This document shows positions 36,505-54,879 of a DNA stretch of 64,000 nucleotides, in pieces. The notes below the pieces were generated by a model that saw nothing but the letters and a program-made list of their open reading frames with translations, had not been told where the DNA came from and did no database searches. A program made the position numbers and the translations under genes. Location of the stretch: contig NZ_JAJOMB010000030.1 of NCBI RefSeq assembly GCF_021129305.1, positions 47,085-111,084 on the forward strand, written 5' to 3'. The stretch comes from Kineosporia babensis (lineage in GTDB: Bacteria > Actinomycetota > Actinomycetes > Actinomycetales > Kineosporiaceae). Within the stretch, counting starts at the first letter, position 1; each line of letters opens with the position of its first letter.

Positions 36505-37980
36505 CTACTGCTTCACCAGCATGCCGGTGGCGACCTTGAACGGGTTGCCACCGTCGTTCCACCAGAAGGCGGCCCGACCGACCACGTTCTGCGTCACCCG
36601 CAGGGACGCCTCCTCGGGGCAGGCGTGGTCGGGGTCGTCCTCGATCACCACGTTCAGCCGCAGTTCCAGGTCGGCCACCTTGCTCACCGTCGCCCGGCCC
36701 GAACACGCCAGTTCCTCCAGCCGGACCTGTCCGCCGCCGGTACCCGCGGCCAGGTCGAGCCGCAGTTCCCACTGGTTCTGCGAGGCGGCGGGCTGGTAGG
36801 CCGTACCCCGCCACTCGCCGGAGAACCCGCTCGGTACCTCGCCGGCGGCCACCGGGGCCGGCTTGCGCTCGGGCTCCGGATCGGGAGCGGGTTCGGCCGG
36901 GGGATTCTCGGCCCGCACCAGACTCTCCGGCGAGGACGCCAGGTCGTCGAACGGGTTCACCATCCAGAACGCCCCGGCCAGCAGCAGGCCCACGGCAACT
37001 ACCACCAACGGACGCGCGGAGCGGCGCCCGCCGATGTCGGGACCGCCGTACGCCGGTACCCCTACGGCTGTGGTCGTGGCCGCCGCCGGGCGGATCGGGG
37101 TGGTGAGCGTCGCCTCGTCCACCATTCCGGCCGCCGTGGCCACCAAACGTCCTACATCGTCGGGTACTTCGTCGGTGACCCGATGCCCGAGCAATCGCAT
37201 CAGCACCTGCTGTGAGCCGGGCCGCCGAGCCGGGTACTGGTCCAGGCAGGTGTGCAGCAGCTCGGCCAGTTCGGGCGGCACACCCCGCAGATCCGGCTCC
37301 CCCTCAAGGATCCGCTGCAGCACGTCACCCACATGCTCCCCCTGGAACGGCGGCAGCCCGGTGGCGGCGTAAGCGATGACCGAGGCCCAGGCGAACACGT
37401 CGGCCGCCGGGGAGACCGGCCCACCCCGGATCTGCTCGGGCGCCATGTAGGCGGGGGTTCCGGCCACCTCGTCGAGGTCGGCCAGCTCGGGCATCTGCTC
37501 GTAGGCCACCCCGAAGTCGATCACCCGGGGCCCGTCCGGCGAGAGCATCACGTTCGACGGCTTGAAATCCCGGTGCACCACCCCGGCCTGGTGGATCGCG
37601 GCCAGAGCGGTGGCGGTCCCGAGCGCCAGCCAGTGCAGGCCGGTACCGGCCAGCGGGCCCTCCTGCGACACCCGCTGCTGCAGCGAGGGCCCCTCGATGT
37701 ACTCGCTGACGATGTAGGGCGAGGCGCCGTGCAGGTCAGCGTCGAGCACCCGGGCCGTGCAGAACGGGGGCACCCGCCGGGCCGCCGCGATCTCCCTGGC
37801 CAGCTGCTCCCGGGGCTTGGCCGCGAACGGGCCCGGATGCAGCTGCTTCACCGCGACCCGCCGACCGGAGGGGGCCTCGGCCAGGTAGACCACGCCCTGC
37901 CCGCCGGAGCCGAGCCGGGCCAGCACCCGGTACTCGCCGAGCTGGGCCGGGTCCTGCGCGGACAGTCCCGATGCGAGCAT
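36505..37980 (-). CDS. receptor-type Ser/Thr protein kinase
   Basis: A 491-residue PknB-like kinase. The kinase domain spans about 17-270: glycine loop LGSGGQGVVY, catalytic Lys45 (VAVKQL), HRDFKPSN with Asp138, DFG at 155-157 and APE at 180-182. A single membrane helix lies at 324-341 (PLVVVAVGLLLAGAFWMV). A Pro/Glu-rich stretch follows, then an extracellular domain of about 115 residues with two Cys (ELACSG; HACPEE) that I do not recognise; GFSGEWRGTAYQ suggests a small beta-barrel. It probably senses an external signal and phosphorylates cytoplasmic targets. Confidence 0.93.
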   Translation of the reverse strand: MLASGLSAQDPAQLGEYRVLARLGSGGQGVVYLAEAPSGRRVAVKQLHPGPFAAKPREQLAREIAAARRVPPFCTARVLDADLHGASPYIVSEYIEGPSLQQRVSQEGPLAGTGLHWLALGTATALAAIHQAGVVHRDFKPSNVMLSPDGPRVIDFGVAYEQMPELADLDEVAGTPAYMAPEQIRGGPVSPAADVFAWASVIAYAATGLPPFQGEHVGDVLQRILEGEPDLRGVPPELAELLHTCLDQYPARRPGSQQVLMRLLGHRVTDEVPDDVGRLVATAAGMVDEATLTTPIRPAAATTTAVGVPAYGGPDIGGRRSARPLVVVAVGLLLAGAFWMVNPFDDLASSPESLVRAENPPAEPAPDPEPERKPAPVAAGEVPSGFSGEWRGTAYQPAASQNQWELRLDLAAGTGGGQVRLEELACSGRATVSKVADLELRLNVVIEDDPDHACPEEASLRVTQNVVGRAAFWWNDGGNPFKVATGMLVKQ

Positions 37981-40838: not shown

Positions 40839-40965
40839 GCGGGCCCCAGCCACCCCGTCCCCCATTGGGCGCAATCGGGTGACCGTACGCATCCGGACCC
40901 AACCATCACGAACGTCCCTCTAGGATCACCGGGAAACTTTCGGCCGATCCGTGGGGGAAACGGTT

Positions 40966-43900
40966 TTGATCATTCGGTTGACGGTGCTCGATCCGCAGGG
41001 CGGGGCGGAGCACGACGTCGAGATCAGCGCATCCGGTGACAGCACCGTGCGCTCGTTGCTGTCGGCCCTGCCCGTGCGGGTGGGTGACCGGCCCTGCTAC
41101 GTCGGCGACGTGTGGCTGGATCCCGAGGACAGTCTGCAGGACAGCCCGCTCACGGTCGGCTCGTACCTGACCGTGGGCCGGCCCGGTCCGCTCACCCGGC
41201 CCGCCTCCTCCAGCCTGGTCGCCCGGCTGCTGGTGCTCAGCGGGCCGGACGCCGGGCGCTCGCTGTACCTGCCGGAGGGCGGCAGCTCGATGGGGCGCTC
41301 GGCCGGGGCCGACCTGAAACTGCGCGACCCGAAGATCTCTCGCGAGCACGCCTTCGTCTCGGCCACCCGCGAAGGCGTCACGATTCAGGTCACCGAGGCC
41401 GCGGACCAGGCCAACGGGATCACCGTGGAGGGCGAGCGGATCGGCGCCCCCCGGTTCCTGGGGCCGGGCCAGCGCTTCCAGATCGGTGACGACGTGATCG
41501 AGGTCTGCCCCTCACCCGGGCAGCCGATGCATCTGAACCGCACCGGCGACTCGCACCTGGAGTTCGACCGCGCCTACGCGCCGACGCCCCGGGTCACCCC
41601 GCTGGAGCTCACCTTCCCCACCGCCCCGGCCGAGGCCGGCAGCAAGAGCGCCATGGTGGTGGCGATGTTCGTGCCGCTGCTGCTCGGGGTGGCGATGGCG
41701 CTGATCATGAAGCAGCCCGCCATGCTGCTGTTCGCCGCCTTCGCGCCGGTCACCATGGGCACCACCATGTTCTTCGAGCGCCGGGCCCGGCGCGAGCGGA
41801 TGGCCAAGTACGAGGGTCTGCGGGAGAAGGCGGCCGGCCAGATCGACCGGGCGATGGTCACCGAGACCGCGGTGCGGCACGCCCAGGCGCCCGATCCGGA
41901 GAGCATCGCGCTGATCGCTTCCGGCTCGGTGCGGGGTCTGTGGCCGCGCGACGGCGGCAGCGAGGACTCTTTGCTGCTGCGGGTCGGCCGGCATGACCGC
42001 AAGGCCGCCGTCTCCCTGCGCGGCGAACCCTGGGTGGGCTTCGAGGACCCGTGGCTGCACGGCGTGCCGTGGACCGTGGACCTGCAGGCCACCGGGGTGC
42101 TCGGCCTGGTCGGACCGCCCGAGCGCACCACCCAGGTCACCAACTGGCTGCTCACCCAGCTGGGCACCCTGCGCAGCCCGGCCGACCTGCGGATCGTGGT
42201 GCTCGGCCCGGACGGCGAGGCCGGCCTGGCCTGGACCCGCTGGCTGCCGCACCTGGACGGCGGCGAGATCCCCTGCGCGATCGGGGTGGACACGAACAGC
42301 CGGGCGGCCCGGCTGGAGGAGCTCAAGCAGCTGATCAGCGTGCGTCAGGACACGCTGAAGGACCAGTACAACGCCCGGTTCGACCAGCACGTGGTGGTGG
42401 TCCTGCAGGGCGCGCTGTCGATGCGCAAGGTGCCCGGCATCCGCGAGGTGCTGCACGACGGCCCGGACGTCGGGGTGTACTCGATCTGCCTGGACACCCG
42501 CGACATGATCGACTGCCGCGGCCTGGTCCGGCTCGACGGTGACACGGTGACCGCCTGGCGCGACCGCAGTGGTACGGCCGACACGATCGTCCCCGAGCGG
42601 TTCAGCGCCCGGCAGTCCGAGGTGCTGGCCCGGGCCCTGGCCCCGATGCGTGATCGGCTCAGCGCCCGCGACGACCCAGGCGCGCTGCCCTACCCGCAGC
42701 GCTTCCTGGACCTGGTCGGCCTGGGCCGGCCCGGCGCCGAGGACGTGCTCAAGCTCTGGGACGCCGAGCCCGGGCCCCAGCTGAACGTCCCGCTCGGCGC
42801 CGACGCCCAGGGCCCGGTGATGGTCGACCTGGCCGGGCAGGGACCGCACACCATGCTGGCCGGGGCCACCGGTGCCGGTAAGAGCATCCTGCTGCAGACC
42901 CTGGTCACCTCGCTGCTGCTGGCCAACCGCCCGGACGAGCTGAACCTGGTGCTGGTCGACTTCAAGGGCGGCAGCGCGTTCCTGCCGTTCGAGCACTGCC
43001 CGCACGTGGTCGCGCTGATCCGCAACACCGAGGACGACCCGGCGCAGAAGTTCGACGAGGCCGCCGCCCAGCGGGTGCTGGCCTCGGTGCGCGCCGAGGT
43101 GCGCCGGCGGGAGTCTCTCCTGGGCCGGCACGGAGGCGAGATCGACAACTACTGGAAGGCCCGCCGCCGCGATCCTTCGATGGAGCCGCTGCCGCGCCTG
43201 GTGATGGTCTTCGACGAGTACGCCCGGGCGATGGACACCTCCCCCGACTTCCCCAAGGAACTGATGGCGGTGGCCGGCAAGGGCCGCTCGCTGGGCATGC
43301 ACCTGGTCTTCGCCACCCAGTCGCTGCAGGGCAAGCTCTCGCCGGAGATGAAGAACAACATCAGCCTGCGGATCACCCTGCGCCAGAACGAGAAGTCCGA
43401 CAGCGTCGAGGTGCTCGGGGTGCCCGACGCGGTGAGCATCCCGGGCCGGTTCAAGGGCCGCGGGCTGATCCTGTGCACCCTGGACGAGAGCCGCCAGCCG
43501 CGCCCGTTCCAGTCCGGGTACCTGGGCGACCCGCCACCCGACGGTCAGGCCCGGCCGGCCACCGTCCGCACCGTGGACTGGTCCGTCCTGGGCCATGCGC
43601 GGCCCTCCGACGGGAACCGGCAGGTGCAGGGCGAGACCGACCAGACGATGTCGATCGCCGCGGTCGAGGCGGCATCCCGGGCCTGCGGTCTGCCGCCGAT
43701 GAAACGCCCGCTGCTGCCCCCGCTGCCCGCCCTGTTGCGCACCGCCAACCGGCGGATGGCGCCGCCCGGGCACCTGGCCTTCGCGCTGGCCGACGACCCG
43801 GAGAACCAGGACCAGCCGGTGCTGAGCCTGGACCTGAGCGGCACCGACCGCTGGATGATCGCCGGTGGCCCGCAGTCCGGCCGCACCACCGCGCTGCGCG

Positions 43901-45222
43901 CCCTGATCAACGGCCTCTCGATCCACCGCAGCGACCAGGTGCACCTGTACGTGATCGCGGGCCGTGAGGGCGAACTGAACAGCTGCACAGCGCTGCCGCA
44001 CACCGGCGCGGTGATGCACGTCGGCGAGCCCGACCGGATCCGCCGCCTGGTCACCTGGCTGTCCGAGGAGGTCACCCGGCGCACCCGCGAGCGCTTCGCC
44101 AGCGGGGCCGCCAGGGCCGCGCTGGTGGTGCTGATCGACGGCTGGGAGGGCCTGGAGAACCGCAACCAGGGCCTGTTCGACGACACCAGCGTCCTCACCA
44201 TGCTCTACGAGGTGATCCAGTCCGGCGCGCCGGTCGGGGTGCACGTGGTGGTCACCGGTGGGCAGGTGATGATCAACGGGCGGCTGCCCGACCTGTTCAA
44301 CCGGCGGATCCTGCTGGCTTTCCCGAACGAGTCGTCCCGCCGGTCCGCGGTCGGCGGCCAGTTCACCCCGCCGCCCCGGCTGCCCGGGCGCGGCATCGAG
44401 ACCGCCAGCGGCTGCCACACCCAGATCTTCCACGTCGACGAGACCGATTTCACCGCCCGCACCCGGGAGGCGCGGGGCCTGAGCGCCGGGCCGATGAGTC
44501 TGGCACCGCTGCCCTCGCACGTGCCGCTGGGCGAGCGAGGGCTGTGGGAACGGGCGGATTCGGCGACCTGGATCCCGCTGGGCCGTGGCGGTGCGCAGAT
44601 CGAGCCGATCGGGGTGGACCTGTTCGGCGACGACCCGCACCTGTTGCTGGTCAGTGGCCCGGAAGGCAGCGGCCGCAGCACCAGTGCCGCCGCGATCGTC
44701 CAGTCCCTGGTGCACGTGGGGGTTTGCGTCCTGGCGATCGCCCCGCCGCGCTCGCCGCTGCACGGGCTGGCGGGCCTGGCCCCGAATCTGGCTCTGCTGT
44801 CCGGGACCTCGTGGAACGACGAGCAACTGCGGACGGGGGTGGCCCCCTTCGAGGGGCAGCCGTACGTCGTGGTGGTGGACGACTTCGAGCAGATGAAGGT
44901 GGAGGCGCGGATCGAGAACTTCGCCCCGGCGCCGACCTTGTTCGACGATCTGGCCGATCACGCCTCGGCCGGCAGCCGGGCGTTGGTGCTGTGCGGGGAT
45001 GCCGGGCCGGTGCTGGAGGGTTCGGTCCGCTCGATGGCCCGGGTGGTCGAGTCCGCGGTGCAGAACGGCACCCGGCTGGTGCTGGCCCCGACCGGGATCT
45101 TCGCGGCCCGTCAGCTCGGGCTGACGCTGGAACGCGACCAGATCCTGCCGGTGCCGCCCGGGCGGGGGTACGTGGCGATGCGGCGTTCGGTGCAGCCGAT
45201 CCAGGCTGCGGGGGTGGCCTGA
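40966..45222 (+). CDS. eccC: EccC/EssC-like type VII secretion ATPase with N-terminal FHA domain
   Basis: A membrane-bound FtsK/SpoIIIE-type motor of about 1418 residues. Residues 1-80 are a ubiquitin-like start, about 85-185 an FHA phosphothreonine-binding domain (SSMGRSAGADLKLRDPKISREHAF), and two membrane helices lie at about 228-268. Three ATPase domains follow. Domain 1 is canonical (GATGAGKS near 632; VMVFDEYARAM). Domains 2 (GPQSGRTT near 967; VLIDGWEG) and 3 (GPEGSGRST near 1230; VVVDDFEQ) have Arg in place of the Walker A Lys. The FHA-EssC arrangement resembles Firmicutes EssC more than mycobacterial EccC. I prefer TTG 40966 after GGGGG; GTG 40951 is also in frame. No EccB, EccD, EccE or mycosin gene lies nearby. 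Confidence 0.9.
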   Translation: MIIRLTVLDPQGGAEHDVEISASGDSTVRSLLSALPVRVGDRPCYVGDVWLDPEDSLQDSPLTVGSYLTVGRPGPLTRPASSSLVARLLVLSGPDAGRSLYLPEGGSSMGRSAGADLKLRDPKISREHAFVSATREGVTIQVTEAADQANGITVEGERIGAPRFLGPGQRFQIGDDVIEVCPSPGQPMHLNRTGDSHLEFDRAYAPTPRVTPLELTFPTAPAEAGSKSAMVVAMFVPLLLGVAMALIMKQPAMLLFAAFAPVTMGTTMFFERRARRERMAKYEGLREKAAGQIDRAMVTETAVRHAQAPDPESIALIASGSVRGLWPRDGGSEDSLLLRVGRHDRKAAVSLRGEPWVGFEDPWLHGVPWTVDLQATGVLGLVGPPERTTQVTNWLLTQLGTLRSPADLRIVVLGPDGEAGLAWTRWLPHLDGGEIPCAIGVDTNSRAARLEELKQLISVRQDTLKDQYNARFDQHVVVVLQGALSMRKVPGIREVLHDGPDVGVYSICLDTRDMIDCRGLVRLDGDTVTAWRDRSGTADTIVPERFSARQSEVLARALAPMRDRLSARDDPGALPYPQRFLDLVGLGRPGAEDVLKLWDAEPGPQLNVPLGADAQGPVMVDLAGQGPHTMLAGATGAGKSILLQTLVTSLLLANRPDELNLVLVDFKGGSAFLPFEHCPHVVALIRNTEDDPAQKFDEAAAQRVLASVRAEVRRRESLLGRHGGEIDNYWKARRRDPSMEPLPRLVMVFDEYARAMDTSPDFPKELMAVAGKGRSLGMHLVFATQSLQGKLSPEMKNNISLRITLRQNEKSDSVEVLGVPDAVSIPGRFKGRGLILCTLDESRQPRPFQSGYLGDPPPDGQARPATVRTVDWSVLGHARPSDGNRQVQGETDQTMSIAAVEAASRACGLPPMKRPLLPPLPALLRTANRRMAPPGHLAFALADDPENQDQPVLSLDLSGTDRWMIAGGPQSGRTTALRALINGLSIHRSDQVHLYVIAGREGELNSCTALPHTGAVMHVGEPDRIRRLVTWLSEEVTRRTRERFASGAARAALVVLIDGWEGLENRNQGLFDDTSVLTMLYEVIQSGAPVGVHVVVTGGQVMINGRLPDLFNRRILLAFPNESSRRSAVGGQFTPPPRLPGRGIETASGCHTQIFHVDETDFTARTREARGLSAGPMSLAPLPSHVPLGERGLWERADSATWIPLGRGGAQIEPIGVDLFGDDPHLLLVSGPEGSGRSTSAAAIVQSLVHVGVCVLAIAPPRSPLHGLAGLAPNLALLSGTSWNDEQLRTGVAPFEGQPYVVVVDDFEQMKVEARIENFAPAPTLFDDLADHASAGSRALVLCGDAGPVLEGSVRSMARVVESAVQNGTRLVLAPTGIFAARQLGLTLERDQILPVPPGRGYVAMRRSVQPIQAAGVA

Positions 45223-45595
45223 ACTGCCCGCCTGCTGCACCAGAAGCACTTTCGGCCACGCTGCGCTCATAGCCCGGCACACAATGCAATATTCGGTGAC
45301 CCGTTGAGGTGATCGGTCCCGGCGTTATCAATTCGTACGCCGGGACCGAAAACCCTTGCACATATGGTTGATTGGAGACGCTGCGGCCGGCTTGTGAGCT
45401 ATCCGTCCCGGGGTGGATGTTCCGGAGCGTGAGCGACGACAGTAATGTGTCGCCCGGTTTCACCGGTTTCTTTCCCTCGTGGGGTGGAGTGAGGGCCGGG
45501 GAAGAAGTGATGAGTTTGTCTTGATGTGGCCTTAGGGGAATCGCGGGGGCTCTGACGGCATAATCGCCGCGGGTGGAGTCTCTGGGGGGAGATCT
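45223..45595. other. 373-base intergenic region between eccC and the FN3 gene
   Basis: It contains the strong hairpin at 45314-45348, then GC-poorer DNA that probably holds a separate promoter for the FN3-MoxR-DUF58-transglutaminase-kinase-WXG100 genes; CATAAT at 45559-45564 is a possible -10. No gene is supported. Confidence 0.5.
45314..45348. terminator. 12-bp stem hairpin after eccC
   Basis: CGGTCCCGGCGT and ACGCCGGGACCG pair perfectly around an 11-base loop, about 90 bases after the eccC stop. There is no U-tract after it, which is common for actinobacterial terminators. It probably separates the eccC transcript from the downstream operon. Confidence 0.6.
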
Positions 45596-48307
45596 GTGTT
45601 CTGGGAACGTTTTGCGTCGCGGGCCAAGCAGCGCGGCCTCGGTGTGGTCGGGTGCGTCGTGGTGTTCGCGCTCGTGGTGGGAGCCGGGCTGATCGGTGCC
45701 CAGGCCACCGGCGCGGTGGTGCGCCTGCAGGACGGCGGGGCCTGGCTGGCGAACTTCGCCCAGGGCAGCGTCACCTGGGTCAACGGCTACGCCGGGCAGG
45801 CCGGTAAGACCGTCCCGGTCAACAATCTCAGCGCTCCCTTCAAGGTGGTGCAGCGGCCCGACGGCGCCTACGCGGTCGACGAGGACGGCAAGGCCACCCT
45901 GATCGACGGCGCCCGCCTGGAGTCCTCGCAGCGCCCCCAGCGACTGGCCAGCGGCGTGCAGGTGTTCGCCAACGGTGCGGCCACCTGGATGCTGGACACC
46001 GAGAAGCAGAACGTTCAGCGGCTGGACCCGAAAACCCTGGCCCCACTGGGCCAGCCGGTCGCCGCCGAGGGCGTCACCGCGGCCGTGGTGGACAGCGAGG
46101 GCTTCCTCTGGGCCGCGGTCCCCGCCCAGGGTGTGGTGCTGCGGATCGGGGACGGCGCGGTCGGCCGCACCGAGGTGGGCAGCGCCAACCAGAACATCAC
46201 CGTGGCGGCCGACGAGTCGGGCGAGCGGGTGATCGCGGTGAATGCCACCTCCGGCTCGACGTTCTCGCTGCACGGCGACAGTGCGGCGCGCTCGTTCGCC
46301 CCGCTGCCCGAGGGCAGTGGCGCCAAGGGCCTGAAGGTCGGCGTCGGTAACGACGGCGGCCTGCTGATCGGCCTGGACGGCCGGGCCGTGGTGGTCCCGG
46401 CCGAGGGCGAGGGGCGCGCCGTGACGCTGCCCTCCGGCGCCAAGGTCGACCAGGTCGAGATCGTCTCGGGCATCGGGTACGTGGTCGACCGCTCCGGCGG
46501 CAACCTGGTCAAGGTCGACATGGGCTCGGGCAGCGGTCAGGCCGTCCCGAACGTCGGCGGCAAGGACCTGGACGACGTGGTTGCCCACGGAAACCTCCTG
46601 TACCTGAACGACTCCGGCGGCAACCAGGTCAAGGTGGTCAAGCCGGACGGGGTGATCGTGCCGATCGAGAAGTACCGGCCGGGCCAGAAGCCGTCGAAGA
46701 AGAAGTCGCAGAACAACGACGCGCAGGAATCGGTCGAGAAGCAGGACCCCCAGAACACTCCGGACGTCCCGCAGACGCCCGAGCGCGAGCAGCCGCGCAA
46801 CAACAACCAGCAGACCAAGAACGACGACCAGAAGAAGAACGACGACAAGCCCGAGCGCGAGCGCGACGACCCGGCCGGCGACAAGCTGCCGAACACCCCG
46901 GTAGGCAACGACAACCCGGCCGTGAACAACCCGCTCACCCCGGTCGGCGGGGACGAGGGCGACCCGGTCGCTCCCGATCCTGAGGCCGGCGCCCCGGATC
47001 CGGAGGCCGACCCGGTCACCGATCCCGAGCCTGAGTCCGAGCCCGAGGCTGATCCCACGCAAGAGGCTGCCGGCCCGCCGGAAGCTCCGATCGTGGCTCA
47101 GCCCACTCCGGAAGACCAGGCTGCGCTGATCACTTGGCAGGGTGCGCAGGACCGGGGTTCCGAGATCACCGGCTATGCCGTCGTCGTGGACAACCAGGTC
47201 GTGGTCGAGGTCGGCGCTGACCGGCGTAACTACCGGCTCACCGAGCTGACCAACGGCCAGCAGTACGGCGTGCAGATCCGGGCACTGAGCGCCGAGGGCG
47301 ACGGTGACCTGTCCCCGGTCGCCTACGTCACCCCGAGCGCAGATCTGCCCGGTACGCCGGGCGGCATCAACGCCACCGCCGGCGACGGCCAGGTCCGGGT
47401 CGCCTGGAATGCCGCCGAAGCCGGGCGTACTGCGGTCACCGGGTACACCGTGGCCGCGGTCACCACGAACGGCGGCCGCACCACCCAGGACGCGAACGGC
47501 ACCCAGTACACGTTCACCGGCCTGACCAACGGCACCGGCTACGTCATCGAGGTCCGGGCCCGCTCGGCCGGTGGTGAGGGCGAGGTCGGCAAGCCGGCCG
47601 ACGGTCAGCCCGGCAGCGACAGCAACCCGGTGGTGCCCGCGGGCAAGCCCGGTGCGCCGAAGCTCGGCACCCCGGTCCCCGGAGCCGGCTCCGCCAAGAT
47701 CAGCTGGGACGCGGCCGCGGACGGCGGCAGCGCGATCACCGGCTACCAGGTACAGGTGGGCACCGGCGCGATCCAGGACCTGGGCGCGAACGTGCGCGAG
47801 TACACCGCGCAGAACCTGAGCAGCTCCGGCGCCACGGTCAAGGTGCGCGCGGTCAACGCCCACGGCCAGGGCGAGTGGGCCAGCACCACGGCCAAGCCCA
47901 CCGAACTCAAGCGCAAGCAGATGTACCAGTGCCGCAACGTCGAGGTCACCGACATCTACATGCTCGACCTGGACACCGACTGCAACAACCCGCAGGCCAA
48001 CCGCTGGGAATCGGCCACCCCGATCTTCAAGGCGCTGTCCACCCAGCAGCCGGGCACGGTGCAGCTGATGCGGTGCATGATCACCAAGCCGCGCGGCATC
48101 ATCCGCCAGCAGCTGCAGACCTGCCCAGCTGGCTCGGAGACCAACGGCGGTACCGCGTTCTGGGCCTGGACCAGCGCGAACGCCAGCGGCACGGAGATCC
48201 GCGAGTACAAGTGGTCGGGCTCGGCGAACGGCGGCTACTACTACGCCCCGGCCGGCCAGGGTGCGCCCTCCGGCTACGCCGCCACCGGCCGCAAGTTCTG
48301 GACCTGA
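45596..48307 (+). CDS. fn3: membrane-anchored surface protein with propeller-like and three FN3 domains
   Basis: A 903-residue extracytoplasmic protein. A signal anchor lies at about 16-38. Residues about 40-360 are repeats suggestive of a beta-propeller (GAYAVDEDGKATLIDG; GFLWAAVPAQGVVLRIGDG; GIGYVVDRSGGNLVKVDMG). A charged Lys/Asp/Pro-rich linker spans about 360-490. Three fibronectin type III domains follow at about 493-580, 584-675 and 686-770. The last 130 residues carry four Cys (YQCRN; DTDCNN; MRCMI; QTCPAG) and end at WT. The GTG start has GGGGGGAG seven bases upstream. It heads the operon and corresponds to the FN3 gene of the bifidobacterial PFNA cluster. A role in adhesion or in sensing is inferred. 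Confidence 0.85.
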   Translation: MFWERFASRAKQRGLGVVGCVVVFALVVGAGLIGAQATGAVVRLQDGGAWLANFAQGSVTWVNGYAGQAGKTVPVNNLSAPFKVVQRPDGAYAVDEDGKATLIDGARLESSQRPQRLASGVQVFANGAATWMLDTEKQNVQRLDPKTLAPLGQPVAAEGVTAAVVDSEGFLWAAVPAQGVVLRIGDGAVGRTEVGSANQNITVAADESGERVIAVNATSGSTFSLHGDSAARSFAPLPEGSGAKGLKVGVGNDGGLLIGLDGRAVVVPAEGEGRAVTLPSGAKVDQVEIVSGIGYVVDRSGGNLVKVDMGSGSGQAVPNVGGKDLDDVVAHGNLLYLNDSGGNQVKVVKPDGVIVPIEKYRPGQKPSKKKSQNNDAQESVEKQDPQNTPDVPQTPEREQPRNNNQQTKNDDQKKNDDKPERERDDPAGDKLPNTPVGNDNPAVNNPLTPVGGDEGDPVAPDPEAGAPDPEADPVTDPEPESEPEADPTQEAAGPPEAPIVAQPTPEDQAALITWQGAQDRGSEITGYAVVVDNQVVVEVGADRRNYRLTELTNGQQYGVQIRALSAEGDGDLSPVAYVTPSADLPGTPGGINATAGDGQVRVAWNAAEAGRTAVTGYTVAAVTTNGGRTTQDANGTQYTFTGLTNGTGYVIEVRARSAGGEGEVGKPADGQPGSDSNPVVPAGKPGAPKLGTPVPGAGSAKISWDAAADGGSAITGYQVQVGTGAIQDLGANVREYTAQNLSSSGATVKVRAVNAHGQGEWASTTAKPTELKRKQMYQCRNVEVTDIYMLDLDTDCNNPQANRWESATPIFKALSTQQPGTVQLMRCMITKPRGIIRQQLQTCPAGSETNGGTAFWAWTSANASGTEIREYKWSGSANGGYYYAPAGQGAPSGYAATGRKFWT

Positions 48308-48367
48308 TCCGTCCCCCTGGCACCACCCCCGACGCAACGCATGACTTACGAAAGTGCAGGAGACATC

Positions 48368-49336
48368 GTGTCTGAACTGGCCGACATCGCCGGGAGCATC
48401 CGCTCCAGTGTCGAGCGGGCCCTGCAGGGCAAGCCGGAGGTGGTCCGGCTGGCGGTGATCACCCTGCTGAGCGAGGGTCACCTGCTGGTCGAGGACGTGC
48501 CCGGGGTCGGCAAGACCACGCTGGCCCGGGCGCTCGCGGCGAGCGTCGAGGGTCGCTGGCAGCGGGTGCAGTTCACCCCCGACCTGCTGCCCGCCGACGT
48601 CACCGGGATCACCGTGTACCACCAGCAGTCCGGGCGTTTCGAGTTCCGGCCCGGGCCGGTGTTCGCCAACATCGTGCTGGCCGACGAGATCAACCGGGCC
48701 TCGCCGAAGACCCAGTCGGCGCTGCTGGAGGTGATGGAGGAAAAGCACGTCACCGTGGACGGCCGGGAGTACCCGGTGCCGCGGCCCTTCACCGTGGTCG
48801 CCACTCAGAACCCGGTCGAGATGGACGGCACCTTCCGGCTGCCCGAGGCCCAGCTGGACCGGTTCATGATGCGGGTCAGCGTCGGCTACCCGGACCCGCG
48901 CACCGAGTCGGACATGCTCAAGTACGAGGCGAACGGCCCCACGGTGGCCTCGATCCGCCCGGTGATCGGCCTGGACGTGGTCCAGCAGATGATCACGCAG
49001 ATCGCCAAGGTGCACGTGGCCGACGAGATCCGGGACTACATCGTGGCGGTCACCGGGGCCACCCGGCAGCTGCCCGAGGTCCGGATCGGGGCCAGCCCGC
49101 GGGCCGGCCCGGCGCTGCTGCGCGCCTCCCGAACCGCCGCGGCGATCGACGGGCGCGGCTACGTCACCGCCGACGACATCAAGGACCTGGCCCCCGCGGT
49201 GCTGGCCCACCGGCTGATCCTCACCCCGCAGGCCGAACTGGCCGGGGTGACCGACCACGACCTCGTCGACCGGGTGATCAGCGGGCTGCCCACGCCCACC
49301 TCGCAGGCCGCCGGGCAGGGCAACCGCCGGTGGTGA
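48368..49336 (+). CDS. MoxR-type AAA ATPase
   Basis: A 322-residue AAA+ ATPase of the MoxR family. Walker A EDVPGVGKTT, Walker B VLADEINRASPKTQSALLEVMEE, and the sensor segment TQNPVEMDGTFRLPEAQLDRFMM are complete. I chose GTG 48368 because AGGAGA lies just before it; an ATG at 48341 is in frame. MoxR proteins act as chaperones for DUF58/VWA partners, and the DUF58 gene follows with overlapping codons. It is the aaa-atp gene in PFNA terms. Confidence 0.93.
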   Translation: MSELADIAGSIRSSVERALQGKPEVVRLAVITLLSEGHLLVEDVPGVGKTTLARALAASVEGRWQRVQFTPDLLPADVTGITVYHQQSGRFEFRPGPVFANIVLADEINRASPKTQSALLEVMEEKHVTVDGREYPVPRPFTVVATQNPVEMDGTFRLPEAQLDRFMMRVSVGYPDPRTESDMLKYEANGPTVASIRPVIGLDVVQQMITQIAKVHVADEIRDYIVAVTGATRQLPEVRIGASPRAGPALLRASRTAAAIDGRGYVTADDIKDLAPAVLAHRLILTPQAELAGVTDHDLVDRVISGLPTPTSQAAGQGNRRW

Positions 49337-50550
49337 TGACCGAGCCGGCTGCGCCTCAGGCGGCGGCTGGTCCTGCCCGCCCGATGAACGGCCAGGCCGT
49401 CGACCTCGGGCGGATCCGGCTGAGCCCGGCCGGGCGCGCCCTGGTGGCGGTCGCCGTCGCCGGGCTGCTGGCCGGCTTCGTGGTGGGTTACGTCGAGCTG
49501 ATCGGAATCGCCTGCGCCGCCGCCCTGCTGGTGCTGGTGGCGGTGGCCCAGGTGGTGGCCCGGGTCTCGGTCCAGGTCGAGCGCAGCATCTCCCCGCAGC
49601 GGGTCGGCGTGGGCGAGAAGGCGATCGGCATGCTGCACATCCGGATCAAGGGCCGGGGCCGGGCCATGCGCGCGGTCGACCAGGTGGGCGGGCGCAAGCA
49701 CGAGATCCCGGTGCCCTCGGGCTCCAGCGGTGAGCTGCGGCGGGTGGTCTACGACCTGGACACCAGCCGGCGCGGCGTGTTCGCGGTCGGGCCGCTGCGC
49801 CTGCACCAGCACGACCTGTGCGAGATCGCGCACCGCCAGCGCGAACTCGGCGACACCCTGCAGCTGATCGTGCGCCCGAAGACGTACCCGCTGAACCAGC
49901 CCGCCCAGGGGCAGTCCCGTGACCTGGAGGGCTCGCGCACCAACTCGCACGCCGAGAACGGCGTCACGTTCTCCGGCCTGCGCGAGTACGTGCCCGGCGA
50001 CGACCTGCGGATCATCCACTGGAAGGGCCTGGCCCGCGGCGGGCCGCTGACCGTGCGCACGCACGTGGACAGCAGCCGCAGCGACATCCTGATCCTGCTG
50101 GACGACCGGGTCACCTCCTACCGCACCGCCGAGGACTTCGAGCAGGCCGTCTCGTTCGCCGCCTCGGTGGCCACGATGGCCCTGGCCGCCGCCGTCACCG
50201 TGCGGATCAGCCCGGTCAGCGGGCGCGGTCTGGCCGGCTCGGCCCAGGCCATCCTGGACGGTCTGGCCGGTATCACCGTGGCCGAGCCCGACAGCGCCGG
50301 GCACACCCTGGCCAGCGCCGCCCAGCGCACCACCGGCCAGGGCGGGCGCACCGCCGTGGCCGTGCTCGGTCCGGGCGCCCAGAGCGAGCTTTCGGCGCTG
50401 GTCCCGCTCCGCAAGAACTGGGCCACCGTGCTGGCCGCCGTCATCGACTCGGGCCGTAGCGCCCAGCGCCCGGTCGAGCCCGGCGTCGCCGTGCTCAGCG
50501 AGGCCACCGCGGCCGACCTGGCCGCGTCCTGGAACCGGAGGTGGGGATGA
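49336..50550 (+). CDS. DUF58 domain protein
   Basis: A protein of about 404 residues. Two membrane helices lie at about 35-72 (GRALVAVAVAGLLAGFVVGYVELIGI...). The DUF58 core follows at about 190-240 (GSRTNSHAENGVTFSGLREYVPGDDLRIIHWKGLAR), and a VWA-like segment SSRSDILILLDDR comes next. Starts at 49330, 49333 and 49336 are all in frame; ATG 49336 overlaps the MoxR stop. DUF58 proteins couple with MoxR ATPases and with TgpA-like proteins, as here. The molecular role of the trio is not known. Confidence 0.9.
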   Translation: MTEPAAPQAAAGPARPMNGQAVDLGRIRLSPAGRALVAVAVAGLLAGFVVGYVELIGIACAAALLVLVAVAQVVARVSVQVERSISPQRVGVGEKAIGMLHIRIKGRGRAMRAVDQVGGRKHEIPVPSGSSGELRRVVYDLDTSRRGVFAVGPLRLHQHDLCEIAHRQRELGDTLQLIVRPKTYPLNQPAQGQSRDLEGSRTNSHAENGVTFSGLREYVPGDDLRIIHWKGLARGGPLTVRTHVDSSRSDILILLDDRVTSYRTAEDFEQAVSFAASVATMALAAAVTVRISPVSGRGLAGSAQAILDGLAGITVAEPDSAGHTLASAAQRTTGQGGRTAVAVLGPGAQSELSALVPLRKNWATVLAAVIDSGRSAQRPVEPGVAVLSEATAADLAASWNRRWG

Positions 50551-52751
50551 GCGCCCCGCCGATCGACGCCCCCACCCGGCGGGCGCCGAGCGCCCCCAAC
50601 CGCAGGCCTGCAGCCGCACCCGCACCCGACCGGGAACAGCCCGTCACCCGGCTGGTCATGGGGCTGCTCACCGTGCTCGCGGCCGCCGTGGCCTGGTGGC
50701 GGGTCTACCCGCCGATGTCGCTGCCGGTACCCGCGCTGAGCGGGGTGCTGCTCGGCGCCGCCGCCGTGGTGCTGGCCAACCGCGCCACTGCGAGCCTGCC
50801 CTCCCTGCGCGGCCTGGCCCAGCTGGTCACCGGGCTCGTGGCCGCGTTGCTGGCCGGGCTGATCACCGCGATGACGGTGTCGATCCCGCGGGCCACCTCC
50901 CCGGCCGAGGCCGTCCGCGGCGTGATCGAGGCCGTCACCGGCGGCCTTTCGCGGATCCTGACCACCACCCTGCCCGCGCCGCCGGCCGCCGACCTGCTCC
51001 CCCAGTTCGCCGTGCTGTGCGCCCTGGCTGCGGCCGCCACCGCCGCGATCGCCCGCACCCGAGGTGGTCTGGCGCTGGCTGCGCCCGGCCTGTGCCTGCT
51101 GCTCACCGCCCTGATCTGCGGGGTCGGCGGGGCCGGGGACCCGCTCGTGGTCACCCTGCCGTTCGTCCTGGCGGCTGGTTTCCTGGTGCTGGCCCGGCCC
51201 CGGCTGTTGCCGGTCCTGGTCACCGTGCTCGTCGTCGCCCTCGGCAGCGCGGCCGGCCTGTTCGTGGCCGACCTGGCCCGGGAACCGATGGACGCCCGGC
51301 ACCTGACCGCCCCACCGCTGAAGGCCGAGCAGCCCACCGCCCCGATGGACGAACTGGCGGGCTGGCTGCGCCATTCCGGCGACACCGCGTTCGAGGCCCA
51401 GGTGGACGCCGCCTGGCGGGAGAACCCGCGGCCCTGGCGGATCGCCACCCTGGACAGCTACGACGGCATCCGCTGGAGCAGCAGCACCCCGGCCGTGCCG
51501 GTCGGCTACGACCTGCCGGCGCCCGAGGAGACCCGCCCGCCGCTGGCCCAGTCCCAGGTCAGCGTCACGCCCGGAGACCTCGAAGGGGTCTACGTGCCGG
51601 TCACCGGTCAGCTCGGCCACCTGGCCCGGCCCGGCATGACGTACGACCTGCGGGGCCAGACCCTGGTCGACCCGGAGGGCCTGAACGGCACCTACGAGCA
51701 GACCGTCACCCTCGGCGAGACCGATCGGGCCGCCCTGGCCGCGACCGCCGCCGGGTACGCGGCCTCGGGCGACCCCAGCCGCTCGCTCGAGGGCTGCACC
51801 GACAACCAGATCGTGCGGCTCGCGCAGACGGCCGTGGCCGGCGCCGACGGCCGTCCGCTCAGCCAGGCCCGGGCGCTCGAGGAGTGGTTCAGTTCTTCCT
51901 CCGGCCTGCGGCTGGATCCGGAAGCGATGCCCGGGCACAGCTGTGGCCGGGTCCTCGAACTGTTCGGCACCGAGCAGAACGCCGGTAACGGCACCCCCGA
52001 CCAGTTCGCGACCGCCTACGCCCTGATGGCCCGCAGCCTGGGCCTGCCCGCCCGGGTCGCGGTCGGGTTCGACGCCGGCCGGCCGGACTCCTCGGGCAAG
52101 GTCACGGTCAGCTTCGGCAGCGCCACCGCCTGGCCGGAGATCTGGTTCCAGGGACAGGGCTGGGTGCCGTTCTCGGCCACGCCCGACCGCTCCGGCAACA
52201 CCACCCCGCTGGAGCAGCCCGAGCAGCAGGAGAACAACCCGGTCCAGCGGCCCGACCCGCCCAAGGACGAGCCCGCCGACGACAGCCCGCCGCAGGAAGG
52301 CACCCTGGACCAGGCCGGCGACGAAACCGCCAAGACCACCGACTTCACGCCGTACATCATCGGTCTGGCCGGCTTCCTCGGGCTCCTGGTGCTGGTCCCG
52401 GTGGCCGGGGCCCTGGTCAACGCCCTGCGCCGGCGCCGGCGCCAGGCCGGCGGTGCCCTCGGGGCCTGGGCCGAACTGCTCGACCGGCTGGCCGATCACG
52501 GTCACCCCAGCGCCGGGCGCACCTCCCAGGAAGTGCGCTCGCTGGTGGCCCGGGTCGAGCCCAGCGCCGAGCCGGATGCCCAGGCGCTCGGCCGGCTGGT
52601 CGATGCCCAGGTGTACGGCGGTGCCCCTGGTGGCGCCGACCCGCAGGCCTGGAATCACCTGCGGCAGATCGAGCAGGCTCTCGCCCCGCACCGCTCCTGG
52701 CTGCGCCGGCTGGTTCGCGGCGTCGACCCGCGCCCGAGGAGGTGGGCATGA
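50547..52751 (+). CDS. TgpA-like transglutaminase-fold membrane protein with missing catalytic residues
   Basis: A 734-residue protein: six or so membrane helices (about 25-240, DUF3488-like), an extracytoplasmic transglutaminase-like domain (about 400-550), a membrane helix near 600-622, and a cytoplasmic C-terminal DUF4129-like tail. In active family members the core reads G-x-C-x-x-F and H-A-W-x-E. Here it reads GTPDQF (482-487; no Cys) and TAWPE (Thr527; no His), so the Cys-His pair is gone. It is probably a structural or binding protein. ATG 50547 follows GGAGGTGGGG and overlaps the DUF58 stop by 4 bases. Confidence 0.87.
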   Translation: MSAPPIDAPTRRAPSAPNRRPAAAPAPDREQPVTRLVMGLLTVLAAAVAWWRVYPPMSLPVPALSGVLLGAAAVVLANRATASLPSLRGLAQLVTGLVAALLAGLITAMTVSIPRATSPAEAVRGVIEAVTGGLSRILTTTLPAPPAADLLPQFAVLCALAAAATAAIARTRGGLALAAPGLCLLLTALICGVGGAGDPLVVTLPFVLAAGFLVLARPRLLPVLVTVLVVALGSAAGLFVADLAREPMDARHLTAPPLKAEQPTAPMDELAGWLRHSGDTAFEAQVDAAWRENPRPWRIATLDSYDGIRWSSSTPAVPVGYDLPAPEETRPPLAQSQVSVTPGDLEGVYVPVTGQLGHLARPGMTYDLRGQTLVDPEGLNGTYEQTVTLGETDRAALAATAAGYAASGDPSRSLEGCTDNQIVRLAQTAVAGADGRPLSQARALEEWFSSSSGLRLDPEAMPGHSCGRVLELFGTEQNAGNGTPDQFATAYALMARSLGLPARVAVGFDAGRPDSSGKVTVSFGSATAWPEIWFQGQGWVPFSATPDRSGNTTPLEQPEQQENNPVQRPDPPKDEPADDSPPQEGTLDQAGDETAKTTDFTPYIIGLAGFLGLLVLVPVAGALVNALRRRRRQAGGALGAWAELLDRLADHGHPSAGRTSQEVRSLVARVEPSAEPDAQALGRLVDAQVYGGAPGGADPQAWNHLRQIEQALAPHRSWLRRLVRGVDPRPRRWA

Positions 52752-54544
52752 GCGAGCAACTGGGTGCCCCGATCGGCGAGGTGATCCCCGAGCTCGACGG
52801 CCTGGTCGGGATGGAGGCCCTGGCCAGCGGTGGGTTCAGCGTGATCTACCGGGCCTTCCAGCCCGCGCTGAACCGCACCGTCGCGGTCAAGATCATGAGC
52901 GCGGACGGGGTGGACCGGCGCGACCGCGAGCGGTTCAGCCGGGAGATGGGGCTGACCGGCAAGCTCGGTACGCACCCGAACATCGTCGACGTGTACCACT
53001 ACGGCCTGACCCGGCACGGTCAGCCGTACCTGATGATGCCCTGGTACGAGGGCGGTTCCCTGGCCGACGGCCTGCGCGACAGCGGCCCGATGCCGCCGGC
53101 GGTGCTGCTGCGCCTGGCGATCAAGATGGCCTCGGCCCTCGGGTACGCGCATCAGCACGGCGTGCTGCACCGCGACGTCAAGCCCGGCAACATCCTGCTC
53201 ACCGCGCTGAACGAGCCGGTGCTGGCCGACTTCGGGATCGCCGTGGACGCGCGTCAGGCCGGTAACGCCACCGTGGCCTGGACCCCGAACCACGCCGCGC
53301 CCGAGGTGCTTTCGTACGAAGAGCCGACGGCCCAGTCGGACCTGTGGGCGCTGGCCTCCACGCTGTACACGGCGCTGGCCGGACGGCCGCCGTACCCGGT
53401 CGATCCGGGTAACACCCTGCTGTCGATCCAACAGCGTTTCCGTTCCGCTCCGCCGCCTTTCGTGCGCACCGACGTCCCCCATTCGCTTTCTGTGGCCCTG
53501 ACCGGTGCGCTGGCCCCGGCTCCGGCCGACCGGCCGGCCGACATGGCCGAGTTCATCGCCGGCCTGCAGGACGTGGAACGCGAACTCGGGCTGCCGGTCA
53601 CGGTTCCGCCTGGGCTGGCCCCGATGCCCGAACTGAGCCGGCGCTCCCGTGGCCCCGAGCCGGACACGCTGGTACCGCAGGAGGCCGAGCGTTCATGGGA
53701 GCAGCCTTCCCAGCCAGCCAGTCCTTCGCTCCGGCCGGAGCCTTCACGGGGGCAGGAACGTTCACGGCGTGCGGAACCTCCGCAACCTCAGGGATCTGCA
53801 CCGACTCGGGGATCTTCACGGACTCCGGACGACTCGTGGGCGGAAGAACCCTCGTGGCCGGCCATGCCCGCGGGCCCGGAAGCCTTCGCCCAGCCCGGCG
53901 ACCCGGGCGGCCAGTTCAGCTCAGGCCCGCAACTCAACTCGGGCACCCAGTTCAGCGCGCCCGAACGTTCCCGCCGGTCCGACAACCGCCACGGCCCGCA
54001 ACAGCCAGCACCCGAGTTCCGGGCCCTGCTTCCCGACGAGGGAACCCAGATCCCGGACGGGGCAACCGTTCTGGGCACCGGCGTCCGTCCGCGGGAGAAG
54101 AAGGGCTGGTCGTGGAAACGCCGGCTGTTGACCTCCACCATCGGCGGTCTGGTCACCGTGGTGCTCGTCGTGGTCGGCCTGTCCTTCATGGCCGACAGCC
54201 AGAAGGACGAGACCCCGGCCCCGGAGGAGACCACCGAGTTCGTGCCCCCCACGGTCAGCGGCCTGCAGGCGACCAAGCGCAGCCCGACCAGCATCACCAT
54301 CACCTGGCACGCGTCCGGCGCCTACGAGAACGTCTACCGGGTGCAGATCGAGGGCCAGGACGCGGCGATCTGGCCCAACGAGGAGCAGAACCAGGCCCGC
54401 TCGTACACGCTCACCGAACTGGAGCCGGGCACCCGGTACTGCCTGACCGTGGACGCGGTCTACCGGGCCCCGCAGACCGAGGAGAACGATCAGGGGTTCG
54501 CGACCTCCTCGTCCGAACGTAAGTGCTTCTCCACCCGCAAGTAA
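52748..54544 (+). CDS. Ser/Thr protein kinase with extracellular FN3 domain
   Basis: A 598-residue receptor kinase. The kinase domain spans about 18-280: Lys48 (VAVKIM), HRDVKPGN with Asp143, DFG at 161-163, APE. A Pro/Ser/Gln/Arg-rich linker follows (about 300-450), then a membrane helix near 460-482 (TSTIGGLVTVVLVVVGLSF) and a fibronectin type III domain at about 500-595 with two Cys. It matches Pkb2 of the bifidobacterial PFNA cluster in position and form. Its natural reader is the FHA domain of the EccC-like motor upstream. The 4-base overlap with the transglutaminase-like gene shows coupling. The linker region 53640-53960 differs in codon style from its surroundings. Confidence 0.92.
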   Translation: MSEQLGAPIGEVIPELDGLVGMEALASGGFSVIYRAFQPALNRTVAVKIMSADGVDRRDRERFSREMGLTGKLGTHPNIVDVYHYGLTRHGQPYLMMPWYEGGSLADGLRDSGPMPPAVLLRLAIKMASALGYAHQHGVLHRDVKPGNILLTALNEPVLADFGIAVDARQAGNATVAWTPNHAAPEVLSYEEPTAQSDLWALASTLYTALAGRPPYPVDPGNTLLSIQQRFRSAPPPFVRTDVPHSLSVALTGALAPAPADRPADMAEFIAGLQDVERELGLPVTVPPGLAPMPELSRRSRGPEPDTLVPQEAERSWEQPSQPASPSLRPEPSRGQERSRRAEPPQPQGSAPTRGSSRTPDDSWAEEPSWPAMPAGPEAFAQPGDPGGQFSSGPQLNSGTQFSAPERSRRSDNRHGPQQPAPEFRALLPDEGTQIPDGATVLGTGVRPREKKGWSWKRRLLTSTIGGLVTVVLVVVGLSFMADSQKDETPAPEETTEFVPPTVSGLQATKRSPTSITITWHASGAYENVYRVQIEGQDAAIWPNEEQNQARSYTLTELEPGTRYCLTVDAVYRAPQTEENDQGFATSSSERKCFSTRK

Positions 54545-54585
54545 CCGAGCTTCCACACCGAATCCGACAATGTAGAGGGGTAACC

Positions 54586-54879
54586 ATGGGTATCAAGGTC
54601 GAATACGGGGAACTGCAGACCACGTCCGCCCAGCTGAACAGCGGCCGCGAGGAGATGATCGCCAACCTGAACCGGCTCAAGGGCCTGGTCGACGGCCTGG
54701 TCGCCAGCGGGTTCGTCACGGACCAGGCCTCGGGCCGGTTCCAGCAGTCGTACCAGCAGTGGAACACCGGGGCCAGCAACGCCATTCAGGGCCTCGAGGG
54801 CATGAGCACCTTCCTGACCCAGGCCATCGCCCGGCACCAGCAGCTCGACTCCGAGCTGGGTTCCTCCGCCGGCGCCTGA
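54586..54879 (+). CDS. esxA: WXG100-family (ESX) small protein
   Basis: A 97-residue helical-hairpin protein. Helix 1 (about 5-40) includes YGELQTTSAQLNSGREEMIANLNRLKGLVDGL; the turn is SGFVTDQASG; helix 2 includes FQQSYQQWNTGASNAIQGLEGMSTFLTQAI. The classical WxG turn is replaced by GFVT at 42-45, and no YxxxD/E export tail is seen. That variant is common in non-mycobacterial actinobacteria. It has an AGGGG six bases before the ATG. It is the last gene of the cluster and the likely substrate or partner of the EccC-like motor; it would form dimers with itself, because no second WXG100 gene is present. Confidence 0.9.
   Translation: MGIKVEYGELQTTSAQLNSGREEMIANLNRLKGLVDGLVASGFVTDQASGRFQQSYQQWNTGASNAIQGLEGMSTFLTQAIARHQQLDSELGSSAGA

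Follow-up and report, generated by a model that had tools for sequence, protein, structure and literature searches.

Two described systems come closest to the locus examined here. T7SSd, a type VII secretion system of the Actinomycetota, has the components TsdA, TsdC, TsdD, TsdH and TsdI (Garrett, Higginson and Palmer 2024, PMC11217815), and the available text of that paper already proposes a link between its kinase and FHA domain and raises a phospho-switched motor as a possibility. The PFNA operon of Bifidobacterium consists of pkb2, fn3, aaa-atp, duf58 and tgm, joined in some species by prpC, a hypothetical gene and fha (available part of PMC8430577), and has been published as a Bifidobacterium-specific host-immune sensor. 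According to the accessible part of PMC6803598 no orthologues were found outside Bifidobacterium, while a mycobacterial moxR operon is described in part of PMC12067865 as resembling PFNA. We found no published link between PFNA genes and type VII secretion in the literature, supplements excluded: the accessible passages on PFNA contain no type VII terms, and those of the T7SSd paper (PMC11217815, supplements likewise excluded) do not mention fibronectin, MoxR or transglutaminase.

In this study, we relate both systems to a seven-gene locus of Kineosporia babensis, lying within a 64,000-nucleotide stretch of DNA that was analysed as a whole (the window). Judged by its gene content, the locus would be a T7SSd-like secretion unit, and we think it fairly likely that its membrane kinase licenses an FHA-bearing export motor through threonine phosphorylation. 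All seven genes are on the + strand. The first (40951..45222) encodes a TsdC-like motor ATPase of the FHA-EccC/EssC family with 1423 aa, assigned from its open reading frame, Pfam (FtsK_SpoIIIE and FHA/Yop-YscD_cpl), NCBIfam, fold searches and hydropathy; it is composed of a predicted ubiquitin-like part (residues ~1-80), an FHA domain (~95-184), a hydrophobic segment (~235-253) and FtsK-type NTPase domains. It is followed by a surface protein of 903 aa (45596..48307; open reading frame, three Pfam fn3 matches, hydropathy) with an N-terminal hydrophobic segment (~10-28), a repeat region that we read as a propeller, an acidic/proline linker, three FN3 domains and a C-terminal domain. Then come a MoxR-type AAA ATPase (331 aa, 48341..49336; open reading frame, Pfam AAA_3), a DUF58 membrane protein (406 aa, 49330..50550; open reading frame, Pfam DUF58, hydropathy) and a polytopic, TgpA-like transglutaminase-like/DUF4129 protein (736 aa, 50541..52751; open reading frame, Pfam Transglut_core and DUF4129, hydropathy). 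The TsdD-like membrane Ser/Thr kinase (600 aa, 52742..54544; open reading frame, Pfam Pkinase and fn3, hydropathy, alignment) has its kinase domain at residues ~25-280, a hydrophobic segment at ~462-480 and FN3 at 505-577, and the series closes with a TsdA-like WXG100 protein of 97 aa (54586..54879; Pfam WXG100), starting from the ATG at 54586. The motor gene, which we call eccC, is set apart by 373 nt, and the gaps of 33, -7, -10, -10 and 41 nt that follow make the genes from the FN3 protein through WXG100 one tight six-gene run. Both the seven-gene content and this run had been proposed in an earlier sequence-only reading, and each gene was recovered in place with Pfam support. Its further statement that EccB, EccD, EccE, mycosin and a PP2C phosphatase are absent from the locus also holds, since Pfam finds none among the seven proteins.

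The locus and T7SSd, as the latter is described (PMC11217815), share an FHA-bearing FtsK-type motor with a conserved phosphothreonine site, a WXG100 protein, a membrane Ser/Thr kinase, the absence of EccB, EccD and EccE, a home in the Actinomycetota and an RHS-type candidate substrate at related loci. They differ in that MoxR, DUF58 and transglutaminase belong to the window locus, and in the outside part of the kinase, which is helical in T7SSd and FN3 in the window. They differ, too, in the surface protein: TsdI, a large Ig-like protein with a signal peptide, has a C-terminal membrane helix that the 903-aa protein lacks; a C-terminal hydrophobic segment was found neither on the latter nor on any of 13 surface proteins of relatives that were checked. 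For this reason we regard the locus as a T7SSd-like variant and do not file it as a member. Close to TsdI stand the ~2000-aa surface proteins of three relatives (G290, G142 and G242), which carry both Ig-like and FN3 domains and so join the description of TsdI to the FN3 protein of PFNA. As candidates for TsdH, a short protein with one membrane helix, small open reading frames within 45150-45640 were inspected, and none was hydrophobic as judged by eye. The "reduced secretion machine" of the sequence-only reading is better replaced by a T7SSd-like subtype, a kind that is described without EccB, EccD and EccE.

With regard to ESX (T7SSa), the locus has in common an FtsK-type EccC motor and a WXG100 substrate, but the EccC of ESX has no FHA domain, and the seven genes of the window do not include EccB, EccD, EccE or mycosin. 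NCBIfam scores for the motor were 340 bits for EssC and 323 bits for EccCa; as both fall short of their cut-offs, the protein does not qualify as a standard EssC or as a standard EccC. When 57 motor rows were placed in a tree, the six ESX rows split with an SH-aLRT of 100 from the other 51, all of the FHA-EccC family, some of which have a degenerate FHA domain. Only two EccB matches occur in this genome, both on contig C12 and each within an ESX locus that also holds EccC and EccD, one of the two with a mycosin-like subtilase, and no FHA domain was found on either ESX EccC of the genome. From the tree split, the FHA-less ESX motors and the restriction of EccB to ESX loci it follows that the window motor belongs to a lineage other than ESX, and the idea of a stripped ESX system is rejected, tree and EccB census both being against it. 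EccB and EccD, for which the sequence-only reading had proposed a search of the genome, do exist there, in two ESX loci with FHA-less EccC proteins of their own. Neither of these holds an orthologue of the window motor; the presence of one would have told against that reading. Orthologous motors that are 70-85% identical occur in K. rhizophila, K. succinea and Kineosporia sp.; named orthologues with 45-51% identity, among the matches listed, come from Streptomyces, Frankia, Geodermatophilus, Nonomuraea, Micromonospora and others.

One feature of the motor appears to go beyond the description of T7SSd. Its first ~80 residues (40951..41190, + strand) are predicted to form a ubiquitin-like domain with a beta-grasp fold. 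Searched for similar folds as a whole, the N-terminal model gave FHA matches only, and a separate second model of the N-terminus was therefore used. Sequence comparison with EccD by hhalign was weak (8.9% probability), while a profile of the domain ranked EccD above ESX EccC with an AUC of 0.94, against a mean of 0.71 for column-shuffled profiles, of which 1 of 30 ranked as high. If the prediction is right, the fused domain would stand in for TsxB/EsaB/YukD, which is a protein by itself in other type VII systems. T7SSd has no ubiquitin-like protein according to the available text of PMC11217815, and fusion to the motor would explain how T7SSd loci seemingly do without this otherwise near-universal part.

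That the FHA domain (41233..41502, + strand; Pfam, alignment, fold search) is fused to the motor was borne out, with the phosphothreonine residues R116, S130, H133 and N155 intact. These R, S, H and N residues are invariant across the 16-row alignment A2, and of 20 non-duplicate loci in the orthologue clade 19 keep them intact; variation among the loci of this clade includes A in place of the G before R in six and an extra residue between S and H in two. GarA and OdhI lead the nearest solved folds, tied with other FHA domains. GarA/OdhI-type FHA domains work with Pkn kinases. The kinase of the window has intact catalytic motifs (VAVK, HRD and DFG), as do most of the neighbour kinases aligned, and a kinase lies near the motor in 12 of the 20 loci, three of the 12 being close relatives from one genus; in Micromonospora the kinase gene overlaps eccC by 4 nt. 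The remaining eight comprise four Nonomuraea loci, where a degenerate pseudokinase takes the position of the kinase (both of those checked contain a hydrophobic segment), and four with no kinase in the flanks examined.

The pseudokinases raise the alternative that contact between FHA domain and kinase is structural and phosphate-independent, the kinase domain being a docking part, as in EssB-EssC of Bacillota. In both T7SSb (Yuk/Ess) and the window the motor bears an FHA region and is accompanied by a membrane kinase or pseudokinase, which in T7SSb contacts that region; the YukC/EssB pseudokinase binds the FHA region of YukB in a manner judged phosphorylation-independent (available text of PMC9600267). 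Besides the four Nonomuraea loci, genome G205 also has a pseudokinase in the place of the kinase. Against a phosphorylation switch stands the intact FHA domain beside the pseudokinase at the Nonomuraea loci L074, L077 and L079; in its favour, FHA and kinase residues are both degenerate in G205. However, the window differs from T7SSb in having one FHA domain with an intact site together with a predicted ubiquitin-like domain, and in a kinase that has its catalytic residues; the same residues are kept in most aligned neighbour kinases, and the invariance of the phosphothreonine site in A2 is unlike EssC as the accessible parts of PMC9600267 and PMC11217815 describe it. We hold purely structural contact to be improbable for the window and continue to favour a phosphorylation switch. 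The passage from kinase to pseudokinase inside one motor clade would be a natural experiment on the origin of EssB-like pseudokinases. In a further genome, G290, an active-looking kinase accompanies an FHA domain without the N residue, which also counts against the switch. As a general rule, "intact FHA implies kinase neighbour" was rejected: outside the orthologue clade no kinase was found in the flanks of seven loci with intact or nearly intact FHA (L058, L065-L067, L069, L070 and L094, the last with incomplete sequence), another point against the switch, compared with 2 of 15 loci with degenerate FHA that have one, a tally that excludes L063 and L064 (ESX) and L096 (incomplete). Loci found later through PFNA linkage pair an intact FHA domain with a kinase, having been selected by that same linkage.

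Since the kinase gene lies near the gene of the FHA-bearing motor, the kinase would likely switch export on. According to such a mechanism, the outside FN3 domain of the kinase would sense a surface cue, and the kinase would then place phosphate on a threonine, either its own or that of a partner such as MoxR. Binding of the phosphothreonine by the motor FHA domain would bring motor and partner together, and the motor, thus recruited or activated, would export the WXG100 protein together with WXG-guided effectors, which in orthologous loci would be of RHS type. The place of EccB, EccD and EccE would likely be taken by the surface protein, MoxR, DUF58 and the transglutaminase-like protein, which would assemble or reshape the channel's envelope portion. 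MoxR is one candidate for the phospho-partner because the kinase Pkb2 acts on the PFNA MoxR protein as a substrate according to PMC12067865 (accessible part). The nearest working parallel is the T6SS of Agrobacterium, whose secretion is turned on by a kinase together with an FHA protein (PMC11217815, available text). The analysis lends no support to the proposal that the FN3 domains of kinase and surface protein sense the same ligand: they match over 21 residues only (E 0.009), and orthologous loci pair the motor instead with WD40-propeller kinases (Streptomyces, Micromonospora) or a SPOR-domain kinase (Geodermatophilus), the outside domain being variable and FN3 in the window.

The sequence-only reading had the WXG100 protein as export cargo. 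Probably more than the WXG100 protein is exported, because an RHS-type effector is encoded beside the motor in most of the named orthologue loci. These number at least 15, with at least 45% identity (L071-L085, among the matches listed), three of them duplicates of other genomes used. An effector match reaching beyond the N-terminal part was found in 11 of the 15 (one running off the sequence end, one in two frames), a match to the N-terminal part only in two and none in two. BLAST with the Kineosporia genes also placed a small helical gene (9/15), a ~213-aa gene (9/15) and WXG100 (10/15) near the motor, these and the effector genes being mostly convergent with it. All three RHS effectors that were scanned have DUF6531 and RHS repeats, and two have a T7SS_signal domain as well. 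Genes of 1634, 1661 and 1697 aa beside some FHA-EccC genes in Micrococcales were considered as TsdI and rejected, the three scanned being glutamate dehydrogenase.

Within Kineosporia, the cassette (small helical gene, ~213-aa gene and RHS effector) is present in G004 and G005; neither the RHS effector nor its small partner genes were found at the locus in the window, nor was the cassette in K. rhizophila. Together with a dN/dS of 0.63 for WXG100, the highest of six genes measured (the transglutaminase gene was left out) and above the 0.15-0.37 of the other five, this could mean that the locus is decaying, its lineage having lost the cassette and motor and WXG100 being on their way out. Against this, all seven reading frames are open, the motor has a dN/dS of 0.31 over 1418 codons when compared with K. 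rhizophila, and WXG100 is 87% identical. Such decay seems to us very improbable.

What is new here, beyond PMC11217815, is that PFNA-type genes are tied to FHA-EccC, alongside the predicted ubiquitin-like domain on the motor and the paired residue states of FHA and kinase. The window has the same five core gene types as the published description of the PFNA operon, all on one strand. It differs in that the kinase comes last where in PFNA it is first, in adjoining a motor and WXG100, and in carrying its FHA domain on the motor. The PFNA order is found in G242, where kinase, FN3, MoxR, DUF58, transglutaminase and motor genes follow each other on one strand, the last two overlapping by 4 nt, and also in the Demequina genus, there with a surface protein that is Ig-like (scanned in three of eight).

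A series of surface protein, MoxR, DUF58 and transglutaminase genes was identified in 24 genomes, a non-random set made up of window relatives, 13 of 42 other FN3-matched genomes (even sample of 296), a MoxR survey and G242, found via its motor. FHA-EccC lies within ~15 kb of the series in 14 (the window, G001, G004, G005, G008, G017, G035, G021, G290, G205, G254, G131, G142 and G242) and not in 10 (G003, G032, G238 and seven Demequina-genus genomes, each read for ~24 kb or more downstream of the series start). By genus, 10 of 12 are linked and two are only unlinked, the linked genera covering eight families, three outside the window's class. The ~2000-aa Demequina gene, taken from its position as the FN3 protein, had to be rejected as such, as the three examples scanned contained no FN3 but domains of Ig-like and cadherin-like type; we hence also give the counts excluding the eight Demequina-genus genomes, namely 13 of 16 genomes, 9 of 11 genera and seven families. 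The FN3 match in the surface protein of G205 is weak, at 23.3 bits against a cut-off of 25. Among the 13 FN3-matched genomes, the series was present in eight, six of them linked. In a blind test, EccC-like matches at 1e-60, a class that takes in ESX types, were present in 23 of the 42 FN3-matched genomes, and in 8 of the 23 an FN3 match fell within ~15 kb of it, compared with 0.41 expected under random placement (circular-free genomes, rounded sizes, hand-counted loci); none of 200,000 simulations reached eight, a count that includes G067 and G263, both without a MoxR match. As a clean marker the FN3 protein was rejected, most of 43 matched genomes being hit via generic FN3 domains by query range.

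These counts bear on the alternative that the PFNA genes are an independent adhesion/sensing operon and the motor/WXG100 pair a mere neighbour. Consistent with it are the series without a motor in G003 (a further Kineosporia species with the FN3-to-kinase genes), G032, G238 and seven of eight Demequina-genus genomes, the 373-nt gap after eccC, and a motor convergent with the run in three Kineosporia species. But linkage across genera and families and the excess in the blind test argue the other way, as does the spread of linked motors over several sub-clades of the motor tree, where the fewest label changes were 7 against a shuffled mean of 11.7, with 1 of 1000 shuffles as low. Moreover, in G035 and G290 a PP2C gene and a stand-alone FHA gene precede kinase and motor on one strand, so that PFNA content runs into the motor; two WXG100-type genes follow it in G290. 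Motor, kinase and FN3-to-transglutaminase genes occur together in three other Kineosporia species and a second genus, and because they stay together though orientation and order vary, their partnership is more than chance, and it returns throughout the actinobacterial phylum. Independence of the FN3-to-kinase genes from eccC/WXG100 in most relatives, which the sequence-only reading had named as a refuting outcome, was not seen in this set, and we consider an incidental link rather doubtful. The distribution of the favoured partnership would suit an association that is old and has sometimes been lost, or one that was gained several times. In Demequina aestuarii (G021) the order is kinase-first, then PP2C, motor and WXG100, and a PP2C gene is likewise present in other PFNA-motor loci.

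We would put forward, tentatively and as something that may well be wrong, a wider reading in which an ancient type VII machine, phospho-gated and spread through the whole phylum, has the PFNA operon as its sensing and envelope half, with the kinase/FHA pair as ancestor of the phosphate-blind EssB-EssC and a ubiquitin-like subunit fused to the motor. Two open questions become testable through this locus: the function of the PFNA operon, and whether threonine phosphorylation acts as a switch on some type VII motors. If PFNA serves secretion, the cytokine binding reported for the FN3 protein of Bifidobacterium would be incidental or a co-opted function, and the "sensor" kinases of many actinobacteria would target an export motor. 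In Bifidobacterium itself, B. choerinum and B. dentium are reported to carry type VII genes (available text of PMC4965825), and PFNA and type VII genes may be apart, given that the B. longum WXG100 gene has a locus number distant from that of the PFNA gene (accessible parts of PMC9415070 and PMC8430577). Such a separation would parallel that seen in seven of the eight Demequina-genus genomes.

In the genus Demequina, the genes for the kinase, a surface protein of about 2000 aa, MoxR, DUF58 and transglutaminase followed one another in this order in all eight genomes fetched (loci L202, L204 and L206-L211), and the surface protein carried Ig-like/cadherin-like domains in each of the three cases scanned. 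In Nonomuraea, the kinase slot near the motor is occupied by degenerate pseudokinases (L074:20226-21509, L075:20979-22172, L077:20462-21790 and L079:22333-23985). Their degenerate kinase part is followed by a membrane segment and an outside part (a hydrophobic segment is present in the two loci checked), a layout like that of EssB, the pseudokinase of T7SSb (Yuk/Ess), here within Actinomycetota. In the window itself, a second Ser/Thr kinase of 491 aa with VAVK, HRD and DFG present is encoded at 36505-37980 on the minus strand, 3 kb upstream of the motor gene and opposite to it.

Outside the window, its own genome yielded seven matches to T7SS_signal (PF21725), five of them over the cut-off. 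Those on contigs C2, C14, C18 and C21, which gave no FtsK-family match in the own-genome search, are candidate substrates of the window motor. The same genome holds a paralogous FHA-EccC locus (L060, C8:101000-120900) that encodes a WXG100 protein and an RHS effector of its own and has a degenerate FHA; no kinase was found in this fetched stretch. On C10, a 1371-aa protein (L061:745-4860) adjoins WXG100 and FHA-EccC; it contains a T7SS_signal domain in its interior and, at the C-terminus, a ParB_N-like match that stays below the cut-off.

At L068:10203-16181, a single 1993-aa protein adjoining FHA-EccC bears three toxin-type domains, Ntox15, TNT and Gln_amidase.

A ~213-aa family (L052:5196-5837 and relatives), for which the Pfam search returned no match, has its gene placed between those for the small helical protein and WXG100. 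A hydrophobic segment lies at ~230-270 in both of the RHS partners that were inspected, so this family may act as their chaperone.

By alignment, the second and third NTPase domains of the window motor (40951-45222) carry invariant arginines, R978 and R1242, in their Walker-A-like motifs; K644 holds the matching position in the first.
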